The position numbers and the translations under genes were made by a program. Shown here piece after piece: positions 14,450-20,102 of a stretch of 64,000 nucleotides of DNA. The notes under the pieces were generated by a model. It saw only the letters and a program-made list of their open reading frames with translations, was not told the DNA's origin and ran no database searches. Within the stretch, counting starts at the first letter, position 1, and each line of letters opens with the position of its first letter. This DNA is from Methanolacinia paynteri (GTDB taxonomy: Archaea; Halobacteriota; Methanomicrobia; Methanomicrobiales; Methanomicrobiaceae), in the NCBI RefSeq assembly GCF_000784355.1, contig NZ_KN360939.1, forward strand, positions 111,021-175,020, in the 5' to 3' direction.

Positions 14450-14793
14450 TTATTCGAGCGCCTTTTTTATCGCCGATACGATTGTCTCAATTTCGCTATA
14501 TGGTGGTTCTTCCATCCCGCGTTTTTTGATCCCGTAATCGGTTGCGATTATCCGGAGGTCCGGGTTTATGCCGAGGGATTCGATCTTCTTTTTCCCGCAG
14601 CAGTCTTCGCATCCGTCGAGTGCAAGGATCGTTTCGAATTTATCCTGTGGATTTTTTTTAAGAGCCTCAAGCCTTCCTGCTTCAATACATCTGTCAATCT
14701 TTCCTGGGCACGGTGCATGAGGGTTAGCCCGGCCTGTGTCGTCAGTTTGCCTGTGTTTGAGACGCCGGAGCATGTGATGATGGTAATGCCCAT
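14450..14793 (-). pseudogene. DGC-domain (putative zinc-binding) protein, frameshifted
   Basis: Two adjacent frames together encode one DGC-domain protein. The first gives MGITIITCSGVSNTGKLTTQ and continues AGLTLMHRA. The second continues with CPGKIDRCIEAGR and contains the family motif LDGCEDCC and the C-terminal IVSAIKKALE. The total length, 344 nt, is one base short of a whole number of codons, so a single-base indel near 14702-14712 explains the break. It is either a recent pseudogene or a sequence error. The intact paralogue lies immediately upstream. Confidence 0.7.
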
Positions 14794-14809
14794 GATTCCT
14801 GAAACCTTT

Positions 14810-15214
14810 TCATTCGGAATTCTTTTCTCCCTTGCCTTCCCAGCAGGCGGAGACTGCGGTCTCAATATCATCATCCGAGTAGGATTTTGAAGGGCCTTTT
14901 GTGATGCCGAGTTCTGTCATGATAAGATGTTGAGACACCGGGACATCGTTTGCATCCGCAATCTTTTTTGCACAGTTCATCGGGCACCCGTCGAGCACGA
15001 CAACTCCGCCGGTATCCTTTGCTCTTTTTATGAGATCTTCTTCTCCTGTCGCGAGAAGTGCAGTGCATGCGATCTTTCCGAATCCTTCTTCAGTAAGCCG
15101 GATTGCCGCAAGGTTTGTAATCTGACCTGCATTCGCCTGCCCGGAACAGGGGAAGATGATCCTTTCTGGTTCATTCCCGCCACACGAGCAGGAGCATTTT
15201 TGTTCGTCTTGCAA
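14810..15214 (-). CDS. DGC-domain putative zinc-binding protein
   Basis: This is a 134-residue cytoplasmic protein with many cysteines. It begins with a Cys cluster (KCSCSCGG), then has IIFPCSGQANAGQITNLAA and the DGC hallmark VVLDGCPMNCAKKI. DGC proteins are putative metal-binding proteins that often accompany ArsP-like permeases; the exact role is not established. A TTG at 15214 is chosen because GGAGAGGTG at the end of the thioredoxin-like gene is a well-spaced ribosome-binding site. The gene follows that one directly, within the same minus-strand operon. Confidence 0.8.
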   Translation of the reverse strand: MQDEQKCSCSCGGNEPERIIFPCSGQANAGQITNLAAIRLTEEGFGKIACTALLATGEEDLIKRAKDTGGVVVLDGCPMNCAKKIADANDVPVSQHLIMTELGITKGPSKSYSDDDIETAVSACWEGKGEKNSE

Positions 15215-15215
15215 C

Positions 15216-15455
15216 TTACTGCACCTCTCCAAGTATCTTTTTCAGTTCGGCAACATCGGCAACCCTTCCGGAGACCTTGATCTCCCCGTTGACAGCTACC
15301 GCGGGGGTGAGCATTACGCCCCGGTCAATTATCTCTTCGATATCCTCGATCTTCTGGATATCGGCGGAAATACCGCTCTCTGCGACTGCCTTTTCAACGT
15401 TTTTCATTTGTCGTTTGCATTTCATGCAACCTGTTCCGAGGACTTCTATCTTCAT
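15216..15455 (-). CDS. Thioredoxin-like small redox protein (redox-active disulfide protein 2 family)
   Basis: The protein has 79 residues and a thioredoxin fold. It starts MKIEVLGTGCMKCKRQMKNV, with the active CxxC being CMKC at residues 10-13, and has the cis-proline segment VMLTPAVAVNGE. Such mini-thioredoxins commonly sit next to ArsP/DUF318 permeases and may reduce or carry the metal(loid) or thiol substrate. ATG 15455 is chosen because AGGAAGTGA lies immediately upstream, inside the end of the preceding gene. Confidence 0.88.
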   Translation of the reverse strand: MKIEVLGTGCMKCKRQMKNVEKAVAESGISADIQKIEDIEEIIDRGVMLTPAVAVNGEIKVSGRVADVAELKKILGEVQ

Positions 15456-15459
15456 TTTT

Positions 15460-15714
15460 TCACTTCCTGTTTTCATATTCTCTAAACAATGCAATCTTGT
15501 ATTTTGTTTCTGCTGCGTCCGGGATGTAGTTGTAAATCCTGACTTTTTTGAGAAGAGTCTCGGTAATCTCTGTTTTGCTCCGCAGGCCTATCTGGCGGAT
15601 TTCGGCGATAATCTCTTCAAGCATCGTTATGCCGACTACTGCACCATCGACATCGATCTGTTTAACGCGCCTCATCGCATCTGCGGCGCAGCATGGTATG
15701 TCTTTATTGGTCAT
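15460..15714 (-). CDS. Conserved-looking small protein with CCAADAMRR motif, function unknown
   Basis: This 84-residue soluble protein does not match any family I can name with confidence. It starts MTNKDIPCCAADAMRRVKQI, with a vicinal cysteine pair near the N-terminus that could bind a metal or arsenite, followed by a helical region (LEEIIAEIRQIGLRSKTEIT). Its ribosome-binding site GGTGAT overlaps the permease stop codon, so it is certainly translated from the permease transcript. Operon position suggests a role with the permease and thioredoxin-like protein. Confidence 0.65.
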   Translation of the reverse strand: MTNKDIPCCAADAMRRVKQIDVDGAVVGITMLEEIIAEIRQIGLRSKTEITETLLKKVRIYNYIPDAAETKYKIALFREYENRK

Positions 15715-15721
15715 CTTTGGA

Positions 15722-16795
15722 TCACCCGATTATCATTCCGTATATCATTCCTGCAATTGCAGACGATAGTATCACAAGAACAGCATAGGCTGCTGTCTTT
15801 TTTGCCCCCATAATTCTTGATATCACCAGGAGCGACGGGAGGCTTACGCTGGGTCCCGAGAGGAGGAGGGCAAGTGCCGGCCCTCCTGCCATAATTCCGC
15901 TCGTATAACCGAAGGTCGTCCCTATGACGGGAACTTCAAGCAGCGTCGGCATGTAGAGGATCGTTCCGACTATTGCTGCAAGAAGGCTTGATGTGAACGA
16001 ATTCGTCCCGAAGAACGGGCTGAAAGTCTCGGGGGGGATGAAGTACGAGATCATCCCGAGGATGAATGTTCCTGCAATCAGTATGGGAAAGATCTTTTTT
16101 GTCAGGTCCCATGTCTCCAGCCCCCATTCCGAAACCTCGTCTCTCTCGAAGAAGTAGATTACCAGCACGGCAATGCCGATGGTGAGTGCATAGATTACAG
16201 GGAATTTGATCATCCAGTCCGCCTGTGCGGTACCGGCGATCAGGATTCCTACCAGGAATACGAAGAAAAGCGGGACTACCCACCTTGGGCGATCTGTTTC
16301 TCTCCCGGCCGGAACTGACGGCATTGTGGTCATATTCTTTTTCGTCTCCTCATCATGCGACCTGAAGATGGCCGCCATGATAAGGCCGATGATTATCGCC
16401 ATTGCGATTGCAAATGCGGCTCTTGCTACTCCGAGATCAAAGCCGAGCACATTTGCCGTGTAGACGATCGCGAGGATGTTGATCGCAGGTCCTGCGTAGA
16501 GAAAGGTTGTTGCAGGCCCGATCCCGCTTCCGCGTTTGAAAAGGCCTGCAAACATCGGGAGGATCGTGCACGAACAGACTGCGAGCACCGTTCCGGAGAT
16601 CGATGCAAGGCCGTAGGCTATGCTTTTCCTGGCATCTGGACTGAAATATTTCAATATCACTTCTTTCTTTACAAATGCGGCGATTGCACCGGCGATAAAG
16701 AAAGCGGGAATCAGGCAGGTGAGAACATGCTCTGCGAGGTATCCTGCGAGGGTATTCCAGCCGACTATAAATGATCCGAGAATTGCCTCAATCAT
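15722..16795 (-). CDS. ArsP/DUF318-type permease
   Basis: This 357-residue membrane protein has about eight to ten helices and belongs to the DUF318/ArsP_1 permease family (COG0701). Characteristic segments are VCSCTILPMFAGLFKRGSG (cysteine pair near residues 78-80, in the position conserved for metalloid or organoarsenical transporters) and MPTLLEVPVIGTTFGYTSG in the second half. Known relatives export trivalent organoarsenicals; others are implicated in handling of other metals. It heads a five-gene operon and is divergent from an ArsR regulator, which supports a metal(loid) efflux role. Confidence 0.85.
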   Translation of the reverse strand: MIEAILGSFIVGWNTLAGYLAEHVLTCLIPAFFIAGAIAAFVKKEVILKYFSPDARKSIAYGLASISGTVLAVCSCTILPMFAGLFKRGSGIGPATTFLYAGPAINILAIVYTANVLGFDLGVARAAFAIAMAIIIGLIMAAIFRSHDEETKKNMTTMPSVPAGRETDRPRWVVPLFFVFLVGILIAGTAQADWMIKFPVIYALTIGIAVLVIYFFERDEVSEWGLETWDLTKKIFPILIAGTFILGMISYFIPPETFSPFFGTNSFTSSLLAAIVGTILYMPTLLEVPVIGTTFGYTSGIMAGGPALALLLSGPSVSLPSLLVISRIMGAKKTAAYAVLVILSSAIAGMIYGMIIG

Positions 16796-16843
16796 CTTTT
16801 TCTTCTCCGGTTTTCTCCTCTCTCTTCTAGGGCAAAGGAGTGT

Positions 16844-16859
16844 TTCAAATTTATTTGAA
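16844..16859. promoter_or_regulatory. ArsR-type operator-like palindrome, proximal to the permease gene
   Basis: TTCAAAT (16844-16850) and ATTTGAA (16853-16859) form a perfect inverted repeat with a 2-nt spacer, resembling operators of the ArsR/SmtB family. It overlaps the start site expected for the permease operon if GTATATAC (16880-16887, read on the minus strand) is its TATA box. Confidence 0.55.
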
Positions 16860-16893
16860 TTACTCTTTGATTGTGTTACGTATATACTTTACT

Positions 16894-16913
16894 ATTTCAA
16901 CATTTTTTGAAAT
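16894..16913. promoter_or_regulatory. Second ArsR-type operator-like palindrome
   Basis: ATTTCAA (16894-16900) and TTGAAAT (16907-16913) form a perfect 7-bp inverted repeat with a 6-nt spacer. It shares the TTCAA/TTGAA half sites of the palindrome 50 bp away. Together they lie between the divergent permease operon and arsR, so both transcripts could be controlled by the same regulator. Confidence 0.5.
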
Positions 16914-16999
16914 GATTCTTGGTCTTTTTTTCATCGGGAGAATACCGGTGTTTATATATCGGGTGTAATTTCATATTCCTTTTAACTGGAGATCGGTTA

Positions 17000-17359
17000 A
17001 TGGAGAAGAAATGCAGCTGCTCTGAAGAAACCATGTCGCTTCCGGATGAGATTGTCCTGTCGCTCCGGAAATATGGCGGGATTGACGGACTTCTCAAACG
17101 TCTGCCGGATGATGAAACACTTGCTTCATCCGGCGAGGTCCACAAAGCGCTTTCTGATCCGATTCGCCTGAAGATAATGTCTATGCTCGGCATCCAGCCG
17201 CTCTGTGTCTGCGTCCTGAAGGCGGGTCTTGGAATCGCGGACTCCAGGCTCTCTTATCATCTCTCGGTGATGAAGAAGGCAGGCCTGATAAAGGGGGAAC
17301 AGCAGGGCAACTGGATTATTTACAGTCTGACGGAAGATGGGAAGAAATGGGTTCTTTGA
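17000..17359 (+). CDS. ArsR-family metal(loid)-responsive repressor
   Basis: This 119-residue winged-helix regulator has the segment ALSDPIRLKIMSMLGIQPLC that opens the ArsR fold. The sensor signature is LCVCVL (residues about 72-77), the Cys-x-Cys of arsenite/antimonite sensors, and the recognition helix is DSRLSYHLSVMKKAGLI. An extra cysteine-bearing N-terminus (MEKKCSCSEE) may add ligands. ATG 17000 has GGAGATCGG upstream. A TATA-like TTTATATAT lies about 50 nt upstream, so the operon and its regulator are divergently transcribed. Confidence 0.85.
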   Translation: MEKKCSCSEETMSLPDEIVLSLRKYGGIDGLLKRLPDDETLASSGEVHKALSDPIRLKIMSMLGIQPLCVCVLKAGLGIADSRLSYHLSVMKKAGLIKGEQQGNWIIYSLTEDGKKWVL

Positions 17360-17402: not shown

Positions 17403-17804
17403 TTAAATAATTCCGGAATATATCACGTTTTTATCGCTTATCAACCGGACGATGTCTCCTGAGACGAGATTTTTTGTGATGGTTATGTTGTCGCCCAGGT
17501 CGAACGAATCGCCCTCTAAGTTGTCGTCCGATAAACTTATTGTCTCGGTTGTATGGTCATCTCTGATTATTACTACTTTCAGATCTGATTTTTTAACCCA
17601 GTCTCCTCCTTTGTGCCATAATTGCAATGTATCGGACGAACTGTTGTAGCTCCGGATGATATCTATTGAGTCACTTCTTTCTGCCGGCAGGAGGCCGAGC
17701 AGTGTTACTGAAAAAATAGAAACCAGGAGCACCGCAAGTGCGATCATCATCATCTCTCCTATGACTGGTGATAAAGCGCTGTCATCCGGCGGATTATGGT
17801 GCAT
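17403..17804 (-). CDS. Archaeal type IV pilin-like protein (DUF1628 N-terminus)
   Basis: The 133-residue protein starts with a short charged leader and the pilin segment SALSPVIGEMMMIALAVLLV, a single hydrophobic helix at residues about 10-38, followed by a small beta-rich domain. It carries HKGGDWVKKSDLKVV, a version of the H-x-G-G-D motif found in the other pilins of this window. It should be processed by a prepilin peptidase and assembled into, or associated with, a pilus. It is monocistronic and 40 nt from arsR, converging on it. Confidence 0.8.
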   Translation of the reverse strand: MHHNPPDDSALSPVIGEMMMIALAVLLVSIFSVTLLGLLPAERSDSIDIIRSYNSSSDTLQLWHKGGDWVKKSDLKVVIIRDDHTTETISLSDDNLEGDSFDLGDNITITKNLVSGDIVRLISDKNVIYSGII

Positions 17805-17993: not shown

Positions 17994-18848
17994 CTATAAT
18001 GAATTGGGGGACGCAAAGAGATATTCGAGTGCATATGCCGAGTATTCTCTAAAATGGTCATGTGCAAAATTGAGGATGTAATTATCGATCGTTTTACTGT
18101 TGTTGGGGAAATGAACGTCTGAAAGGTATTTTTTAACCATCCTGCTGCGAATATGGGAATCTACAGGGAAGAGCTCATAGCGGCGGAAGGCAAAGATCAG
18201 TACCCATTCGGCAACAGTCGGCTTCACCCCCCTGAATCCCGAGATGATCTTTATTGCATCCTCTGATTTCATGGACTCGATCTTTTTTGACCACAAGGGG
18301 TCTTCTGCAACTTTTTTTGCTGCAGAGTGGATGTTGTTGGCCTTGTATCCGAGGTTGCAGGTTTTCAGCTTTGAAAGTCCTTCTTTTACCAGTGTTTCGG
18401 CTGTGGGGAATGTGTGGTAAATTTTCCCGTCAAGCTCGATCTCATCGCCGAATTTCTGTGAAATTCTGGTGAAGCAGTCCTCTCCGGGGCTTGTGCGCTT
18501 TTTATTTATCGTCAGCTGGAAACAGAGGCATTCCCAGGGATCCTGACCGACCAGTCTCAGTCCCAGGTTGGCTTCTATGGCACTTTTCAAGTACATGTCG
18601 CCGCTGAAAGAGTCATAGAATTCTTTAAGGTCGTAGTCCAGGGAAAAATATTCTCTATAGCATCTTTCTGAGCATCCCGAAAAGTATATTTTGTCATCGA
18701 GCTGTCTGGTTTTGATTACATTGTCTTTGACGACTCCGTACCACCAGCCGTTGACCTTTTCCCATCGCGGGGCCTGTCCGCTTGCAAGGGTGCTATCAAG
18801 GCTAAAAGGGGAGTCTTCATTGATCTCAATTGATCTATAACCCTCCAT
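17994..18848 (-). CDS. 8-oxoguanine DNA glycosylase/AP lyase, OGG1 family
   Basis: The protein has 284 residues, with an N-terminal OGG domain (about 1-115: SGQAPRWEKVNGWWYGVV, NLGLRLVGQDPWECLCF) and a C-terminal HhH-GPD domain. The catalytic lysine is in the hairpin region GFRGVKPTVAEWVLIFA (K about 209), and the conserved aspartate lies in FPVDSHIRS (D about 228). This is the bifunctional OGG1 architecture, acting on 8-oxoG opposite C in base excision repair. It stands alone and is divergent from the pilin gene at 18978. Confidence 0.88.
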   Translation of the reverse strand: MEGYRSIEINEDSPFSLDSTLASGQAPRWEKVNGWWYGVVKDNVIKTRQLDDKIYFSGCSERCYREYFSLDYDLKEFYDSFSGDMYLKSAIEANLGLRLVGQDPWECLCFQLTINKKRTSPGEDCFTRISQKFGDEIELDGKIYHTFPTAETLVKEGLSKLKTCNLGYKANNIHSAAKKVAEDPLWSKKIESMKSEDAIKIISGFRGVKPTVAEWVLIFAFRRYELFPVDSHIRSRMVKKYLSDVHFPNNSKTIDNYILNFAHDHFREYSAYALEYLFASPNSL

Positions 18849-18977: not shown

Positions 18978-19541
18978 ATGAGATTCTTTGTTGAAGATGC
19001 TGTTTCAGCGGTTATCGGTGTAATGCTGATGCTTGCCGTTACTATTATTATTGCATCGACTGTGGCCGCCTTTGCCGGTGGGGCTTCAACTACCTTCGAG
19101 GATACTCCTGCTGCCAGCCTTGCGGTATATTGTGACGGTTCGGTTGACGACGGGACTTTCAACATAATATTCGACCATCTTGGCGGTGATAAGATCTCTA
19201 CCGACGACCTGAAGATTATCACCTGGATTGATGATGGTTCCGGTGATCCGATCAAGTCCGATCATACTCTCAGCTCCGAATGTTCGTCTCTTTATCCTTA
19301 TTTGAGGCTCCCCTATGTCTATGACAGTCAGGTGTCTGGTTCTAACAATTCCGAGTTCGGTGAGGCGTTATGGAAACCTGGGACTGTTGCAGGAACTCGC
19401 GATGCGGATGCAACTGAGGAATTTCTGAACATTCCTGAAGACAAAACTCTTGATGATTACGAAGGCTCTCCAGTGGAGGTTACGATCGTATATCTTCCGA
19501 GCGGAAACACGATCCTGAAGACAGAGTTCCTGTTGGAGTGA
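18978..19541 (+). CDS. Archaeal type IV pilin-like protein
   Basis: The 187-residue protein opens with EDAVSAVIGVMLMLAVTIII, a DUF1628-type pilin helix in which the usual SPVIG is SAVIG. After the helix comes a beta-rich domain containing FDHLGGDKISTDDLKII, the family motif H-x-G-G-D. It is followed 6 nt later by a second pilin gene, so the two form an operon. A pilus or surface subunit role is inferred. Confidence 0.82.
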   Translation: MRFFVEDAVSAVIGVMLMLAVTIIIASTVAAFAGGASTTFEDTPAASLAVYCDGSVDDGTFNIIFDHLGGDKISTDDLKIITWIDDGSGDPIKSDHTLSSECSSLYPYLRLPYVYDSQVSGSNNSEFGEALWKPGTVAGTRDADATEEFLNIPEDKTLDDYEGSPVEVTIVYLPSGNTILKTEFLLE

Positions 19542-19547
19542 ATTGCT

Positions 19548-20102
19548 ATGAAATTTTGTAGGGATCATTTATCCGGACTTTCTGAGGTATTCGGTGTGAT
19601 GCTGATGCTTACCATCACGCTGATAATTGCCTGTGTGGTTGCAGCATTTGCATGCGGTCATTCTTTCGACACTGTGGATGATTCCATATCGGCAAATATT
19701 GTTGCTTCGGATTGGGGTAAGGATGGGTCTTTATATTATATTATCTTCGATCACCTCTCCGGGGACCCTGTCGATCTCAACAGTATCGAGATCAACCTTG
19801 CTAACCGCTCCTCTGCCAAAGATAAGACTGTTATCAGCAACAACGATGTTCCTCGCGATAGCGGGCATGAGTATATCGAAAACTATGGGGAGGATGATAC
19901 TACAGTGACTGTCGGCGATCGTTTTAGACTCTATGCCGATGGGTCGGATGAGGATGGCGGTGCAGTCACAGCGATCTACTGGCAAAAGGACGGTGCTGAT
20001 GCTGAGTTTTCCGTGCCGGTTGATGGTTATATCGATTACAGGATAATCGATCTAAGATCCGGCAGGGCGATCAGTGCCGGTTCGATACCTGTGGAGATCT
20101 GA
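19548..20102 (+). CDS. Archaeal type IV pilin-like protein with divergent N-terminal helix
   Basis: The 184-residue protein has the N-terminus LSEVFGVMLMLTITLIIACV, the least typical pilin helix of the set (EVFG instead of SPVIG, with cysteines in and after the helix). The downstream domain keeps the motif FDHLSGDPVDLNSIEI. Partner of the pilin gene 6 nt upstream. It may be a minor or tip subunit; this is an inference from its divergence. Confidence 0.78.
   Translation: MKFCRDHLSGLSEVFGVMLMLTITLIIACVVAAFACGHSFDTVDDSISANIVASDWGKDGSLYYIIFDHLSGDPVDLNSIEINLANRSSAKDKTVISNNDVPRDSGHEYIENYGEDDTTVTVGDRFRLYADGSDEDGGAVTAIYWQKDGADAEFSVPVDGYIDYRIIDLRSGRAISAGSIPVEI

Follow-up and report, generated by a model that had tools for sequence, protein, structure and literature searches.

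What work, and on which element, would bring together a permease, a thioredoxin and members of two uncharacterised protein families under an ArsR-type repressor in a methanogen? The question is raised by a locus of Methanolacinia paynteri (window genome: archaeal, 2.79 Mb, 46 contigs) within a 64,000 nucleotide stretch of contig NZ_KN360939.1, positions 111,021 to 175,020, referred to here as the window. On its minus strand lie genes for an ArsP_1-family permease, a small protein with a PCC motif (the CC protein), a mini-thioredoxin and a DGC-domain protein (DGC1), divergent from a gene for an ArsR/SmtB repressor. Our answer, to which we give a probability of about two in three, is an archaeal arsenic-resistance operon in which ArsR would clamp the promoter from two operators, the CC protein and DGC1 would relay the arsenical on thiols to the permease, and the thioredoxin would support the relay. 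To judge from sequence, this is probably a real, conserved and working arsenic operon of Methanomicrobiales. The repressor, the ArsP-type permease and the ArsE-type thioredoxin are already known parts; what is new is their regular partnership with CC and DGC proteins and the proposed clamp of two operators on either side of a TATA element.

The named loci retrieved with the DGC1 protein belong to Methanomicrobiales. Among 63 relative loci, one of them counted twice (L003 and L128 are one contig), the gene order permease, CC protein, thioredoxin, DGC1 was present in 51, and the order of the last three genes in 60; seven loci without a long permease match were kept in the set (L103, L107, L110, L122, L125, L132 and L134). 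Because the loci were chosen by DGC or CC matches, only the frequencies of the other genes are informative. When 29 loci were taken by best DGC matches alone, a sample that overlaps partly with the 63, the thioredoxin was found in 28, the permease in 25 and the CC protein in 23. ACR3 was labelled in 38 of the 63 loci, ArsC in 29, ArsF in 22 and ArsG in 20, with at least one of the four in 55; these are raw counts within the fetched stretch, without a background rate for ars genes beside random genes, and the labelling used tblastn at E<=1e-4, weak matches included. A second ArsP_1 permease was present in 29 loci. Since ars genes adjoin the cassette at 55 loci, arsenic is the likeliest substrate element, and in this the comparative data agree with the first-pass annotation, which had described a dedicated route for handling and exporting a thiophilic element. 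Two traits of ars operons are thus to be seen, an ArsR/SmtB repressor with a cysteine sensor and the company of ars genes, the latter in the relatives and not in the window operon. Other recurrent neighbours, at L068, L074 and further loci, were DUF2703 (30 loci), UspA-like (20) and DUF169 genes (11); we know of no arsenic role for any of them.

The alternative that survives best keeps the operon and changes the cargo: the substrate would be another soft metal or metalloid (Cu, Zn, Cd, Hg, Sb or Te), and the ars neighbours would be part of a mixed metal-resistance island. The permease scored above the Pfam ArsP_1 gathering score (244 bits vs 32.3), a family (PF03773) named after ArsP. Its sole NCBIfam matches were the SO_0444 Cu/Zn efflux model (NF033936, 93.8 bits vs a cut-off of 300) and SaoE (NF040736, 90.6 bits vs 325), both far under cut-off. 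These matches speak for another metal, as do a CDF cation exporter in the G012 island (L068) and the CVC motif of ArsR, which is also found in Cd/Pb sensors. They are opposed by the ACR3, ArsC, ArsF or ArsG genes at 55 loci and by permease and thioredoxin pairs placed inside bacterial ars operons on two of the viewed plasmids, and we consider this alternative unlikely. Thioredoxin matches were obtained in eight plasmid records. The pair stands with arsC, ArsR, ACR3 and arsH on an Acinetobacter plasmid and with ArsF, ArsG, ArsC and ACR3 on a Prevotella plasmid; on an Ilyobacter plasmid it accompanies an ArsR/SmtB regulator, and on a Leptolinea plasmid an unnamed regulator that aligns to the window ArsR. 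The Leptolinea permease has C27 and CSCT in common with the window permease.

Each of the five proteins has invariant cysteines, in a count that left out L128 and any row of odd length or interrupted by a stop, and to which the window contributes one row. They are C27, C74 and C76 of the permease (57/57 rows), C8 and C9 of the CC protein (57/57), the CxxC cysteines C10 and C13 of the thioredoxin (61/61), C23, C50, C77 and C81 of DGC1 (54/54, with an N-terminal CxC in 53) and the CVC sensor cysteines C69 and C71 of ArsR, in window numbering (48/48). A divergent ArsR with an LCVCVL sensor had been proposed from the first reading of the sequence, and so it is: the gene is on the plus strand and its sensor does not vary. 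The window protein also has an N-terminal CSC. A CadC-like sensor made of this CSC plus CVC was considered and is not general, given that C5 is a cysteine in 3 and C7 in 6 of the 48 rows. The repressor matched HTH_5 (6e-13) and HTH_metalloreg (4e-22), and the thioredoxin was above the TIGR00412 cut-off (97 bits vs 62) and matched PF13192 (1e-25), with 1ilo as a relative.

DGC1 exceeded the Pfam DGC gathering score (118 bits vs 27). When DGC1 was aligned together with the second DGC protein, DGC2 (60 rows), three cysteines were invariant, which are C29, C83 and C87 when numbered along the 140-residue ORF; C83 is that of the DGC motif, whose D81 and G82 are kept in at least 90% of the set A3. 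In a predicted model (pLDDT 88) strands 24-28 and 76-81 are followed by C29 and C83, respectively, and helix 87-94 begins with C87, so that the three could plausibly converge on a single edge of the modelled sheet. Three thiolates are the classical ligand set of As(III). The DGC1 sequence gave no credible match among solved structures. The DGC model had no Foldseek match at E<=0.001, and its best VIA Z, 7.8, was with a hydrogenase maturation protease; no fold family is thereby excluded, and the resemblance is perhaps only a common alpha/beta arrangement. The CC protein is predicted to fold as a compact alpha/beta model. The class sample (199 genomes) yielded CC relatives in 174 genomes and the phylum sample (392 genomes) in 98, counts that take in a paralogue without PCC, two members of which have an N-terminal CxxC; matches of this kind, lacking the PCC part, are spread over many genomes. 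One such paralogue, with CxxC and not PCC, lies in G012 (L081:3418-3693), flanked by a gene that by eye is cupin-like and by another small gene.

Invariant cysteines in the thioredoxin, CC and DGC proteins would also suit a general operon for thiol-redox or reactive-sulfur stress, with a permease exporting a thiol or polysulfide and with thioredoxin and DGC repairing oxidised thiols. In the same direction point a match of ArsR to the BigR sulfite-sensor model (3e-8), a TauE-type gene in L068, a Peptoclostridium thioredoxin with neither permease nor ars gene adjoining and, in the accessible text on AnvM, a DGC relative, the high oxidation sensitivity of its Cys44 (PMC6650552). However, the BigR match is far under its cut-off and the metalloregulator model fits ArsR much better, while the labelled neighbours are mostly ars genes; we rate this explanation as quite improbable.

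The control region holds a putative operator pair. Exact TTCAAN6TTGAA occurs in the 64 kb only at the two operator sites, with 0.12 expected, and two sites arose in 1 of 100 shuffles. Both are conserved in G001, a sister species of the same genus with 93% DNA identity over the operon stretch, where the distal one keeps its half sites and has one spacer change. We then compared 48 intergenic regions in which ArsR is divergent from the permease, a second permease or the CC gene within 1.2 kb; this set contains the window and G001 and counts the L003/L128 locus twice, and its members, all from related species, are not independent. They hold 95 sites with at most one mismatch, vs 0.59 in mononucleotide shuffles and 1.14 under a first-order Markov model. 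At least one site is present in 47 regions and a pair 48-60 nt apart in 39, where shuffles expect 0.01 paired. Start-to-start spacings were 52 nt (17 regions), 53 (12), 51 (6), 48 (3) and 60 (1); as about 52 nt equals five helical turns, two dimers would share one DNA face. In the 39 paired regions a TATA-like element lies between the operators, its first position 5-9 nt past the distal and 26-39 nt ahead of the proximal operator, and its mean mismatch to TTTATATA is 2.03 vs 2.89 in shuffles, a modest signal at a steady position. Applying archaeal promoter rules to this position places the predicted transcription start inside the proximal operator. A genome-wide count of the longer TTTCAAN6TTGAA gave 12 rows at 8 distinct places, 6 forward and 6 reverse vs 2 and 1 in a reversed control. 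The palindromes thus have the marks of a strongly conserved operator pair. That two of them separate arsR from the operon had been noted before; they are present, paired and conserved, but instead of being simply intergenic they bracket the TATA-like element of the operon.

Table 1. Features of the putative arsenic operon and its control region (window coordinates; a point marks features given without strand)
Feature	Position	Strand	Remarks
ArsR/SmtB repressor	17000..17359	+	ATG at 17000; divergent from operon; HTH_5, HTH_metalloreg
arsR TATA-like element, TTTATATA	16951..16958	+	direct reading; outside operator pair; same letters in G001
Distal putative ArsR operator, TTCAAN6TTGAA	16896..16911	.	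like site at same position in relatives
Operon promoter TATA-like element, AGTATATA	16881..16888	-	between operators; near-fixed offset in 39 paired regions
Proximal putative ArsR operator, TTCAAN6TTGAA	16844..16859	.	overlaps predicted transcription start
ArsP_1-family permease, 357 aa	15722..16795	-	PF03773, E 2.1e-72; invariant C27, C74, C76
CC protein, 84 aa, PCC motif	15460..15714	-	without Pfam or NCBIfam family
ArsE/MTH895-type mini-thioredoxin, CMKC	15216..15455	-	TIGR00412, 6e-28; ORF extendable to 15494
DGC protein 1 (DGC1), intact	14810..15214	-	PF08859, 1.8e-34; ORF open to 15232
DGC protein 2 (DGC2), frameshifted remnant	14450..14793	-	DGC model matched in two frames

The likely start of DGC1, judged by eye, is a TTG near 15214. 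Beside the operon lies an ORF that resembles archaeal type IV pilins by Pfam (17403-17804, minus strand), and two further pilin-like ORFs (18978-19541 and 19548-20102, both plus strand) were recognised by N-termini resembling it; a gene similar to 8-oxoguanine DNA glycosylase occupies 17994-18848 on the minus strand.

The earlier description of one minus-strand operon with two DGC proteins stands for the permease, the CC protein, the mini-thioredoxin and DGC1, and fails for the second DGC gene, which is frameshifted: one frame covers DGC positions 2-29 (N-terminal part) and another frame positions 48-106 (C-terminal part). In G001 the gene has other frameshifts plus a C-to-Y change at the motif cysteine, and intact relatives of about 115 residues are found in many other genomes. 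Because the sister species is broken differently, this looks like decay within the genus and not a single sequencing slip. Two intact DGC proteins are ruled out by these frameshifts, and translational recoding is not favoured, as the break sites differ between the species and G001 also alters the motif cysteine. Against G001, dN/dS was 0.13 for the permease, 0.31 for CC (from 5 synonymous and 6 non-synonymous changes), 0.19 for the thioredoxin, 0.23 for DGC1 and 0.19 for ArsR, all from small counts; the values suggest purifying selection on these five intact genes. ACR3 was absent from the window genome, from G001 and from G002 (84% complete). The window genome has a single ArsP_1 permease, its ArsG match was below cut-off (33.7 bits vs 200), and no ArsF was seen among the operon genes, the rest of the genome not having been searched for it. 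On another contig (C33:49038-49121; L182:9042-9122) 27-29 residues are 86-89% identical to the start of ArsC, and the search around them found no full arsC gene, so that the fragment is likely what remains of an ars gene since lost; the genome also contains a more distant ArsC-like gene. As far as these comparisons go, the genus carries a stripped version of the ars islands of its relatives. That the whole operon is a functionless, decaying remnant of a larger island, as the broken DGC2 of both congeners, the arsC relic and the lack of ACR3 might suggest, is very improbable in the face of the dN/dS values of the five genes and the two operators kept in G001.

Several observations weigh against an arsenic operon of the kind proposed. 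The Peptoclostridium thioredoxin already mentioned stands alone, and three of the four bacterial permeases beside an ArsE-type thioredoxin have TPFCSCS and 20-29% identity to the window permease; because they differ in this way, ArsP function is not transferable to the window permease. Eight of the 63 loci have no ACR3, ArsC, ArsF or ArsG. Of 60 genomes, the window genome included, 46 are DGC-positive, and 20 of these gave no ACR3 match. Inorganic arsenite is therefore incompletely linked to the operon, and ACR3, the customary arsenite pump, is frequently missing where DGC genes occur; the unfinished genomes of some relatives make this absence of ACR3 partly uncertain. The model of the CC protein had no Foldseek match at E<=0.001 (best VIA Z 4.0), a result by which no fold family is excluded. 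In the accessible text of PMC6650552, AnvM solubilised from inclusion bodies contained neither Zn nor Cu nor Fe in significant amounts. Finally, the neighbourhood survey of DGC genes suggested in the first-pass annotation came out divided: ars genes lie at 55 of the 63 relative loci, chosen by DGC or CC matches, and at none of the eight plasmid loci viewed out of 22 records with DGC matches. Of those eight, two are in nitric oxide (NO) or denitrification settings (Ideonella, Cupriavidus) and six in other settings, two haloarchaea included. An arsenic role would therefore be confined to the methanogen branch rather than hold for DGC proteins at large, and the NO and denitrification company, as a matter of gene neighbourhood, suggests a second role of the family. 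The neighbours of the plasmid DGC genes at L092 and L094 were NnrS, hemerythrin, YtfE, NorR, U32 peptidases and nosZ.

Comparison with described systems places the locus near several of them. Castillo and Saier (2010), in the part available, name ArsP and this thioredoxin family as parts of ars operons, and the likeness extends to ArsR and to ars islands with ACR3 and ArsC. There, however, the thioredoxin is tied to CcdA and ArsC, whereas in the window operon CC and DGC proteins join the set and an archaeal promoter with two putative operators precedes it; a search of the available text for "DGC" gave no match. With ArsEFG (Chen, Zhang, Rosen 2019, as cited in the accessible part of PMC9144182) the locus shares the ArsE-family thioredoxin TIGR00412 and, in the relative loci, the ArsF and ArsG genes counted above. 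It differs in lacking ArsF in the window operon and in having an ArsP_1 permease and not a DsbD_2-type ArsG; with ArsG under cut-off in the genome, it does not count as a direct member of that system. The SAO system, as far as the available text goes (PMC13188914), is alike in its thioredoxin-like SaoT, its Cys-Cys protein SaoC and its permease SaoE, whose model the window permease matches weakly. Yet SaoC ends in Cys-Cys-COOH whereas the CC motif of the window is N-terminal, and no selenoprotein or ABC transporter gene was seen in the window operon. The permease scores, far below both cut-offs, do not place the locus directly in the SAO or SO_0444 groups. According to the accessible part of PMC6205960, ArsP, the methylarsenite efflux permease of Campylobacter, exports MAs(III), and methanogens methylate metalloids. 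The window permease, with its 357 residues, invariant C27 and CSCT, is likened to the Campylobacter protein by family only. AnvM is a DGC protein of Pseudomonas aeruginosa that modulates virulence and anaerobiosis; it shares the DGC motif and is the annotation at plasmid match H17, 30% identical to DGC1, but no arsenic link was found in the text available (PMC6650552). The literature searched, with most subscription journals outside reach, gave no link of DGC or CC proteins to arsenic and no description of this operator layout, which is not proof of absence.

If the locus is an arsenic operon, it could work as follows. Without arsenic, ArsR dimers would occupy the two palindromes that bracket the operon TATA element, the distal operator abutting the position of the transcription factor B recognition element (BRE) and the proximal one covering the predicted start site; with ArsR on both flanks, TBP/TFB and the polymerase would be shut out. 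Because the TATA-like element of arsR lies outside the operator pair, expression of arsR is probably continuous. Trivalent arsenic would bind the CVC cysteines and release ArsR, the inducer being inorganic As(III) or else methylarsenite formed incidentally by the methyl transfer of methanogenesis. The CC protein and DGC1 would then carry As(III) or methylarsenite on cysteine thiolates to the permease, which would export the arsenical with the participation of its three invariant cysteines, and the ArsE-type thioredoxin would reduce the carrier thiols or strip the arsenical off protein thiols. A more specific version is offered only tentatively: the CC and DGC proteins may be new arsenic metallochaperones which, with the C27/CSCT permease and the ArsE-type thioredoxin, form a thiol-relay exporter of self-made methylarsenite, often without ACR3. 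This version includes the two-operator ArsR clamp of the core promoter and takes methylarsenite to be a side product of methanogenesis.

If the arsenic reading is true, two uncharacterised families, the PCC-motif protein and the DGC proteins of these archaea, would acquire a testable job in arsenic handling. The promoter layout would represent a conserved way for a repressor of bacterial type to close an archaeal TATA promoter, and the operon suggests a route by which methanogens may tolerate the methylated arsenic that they reportedly form.

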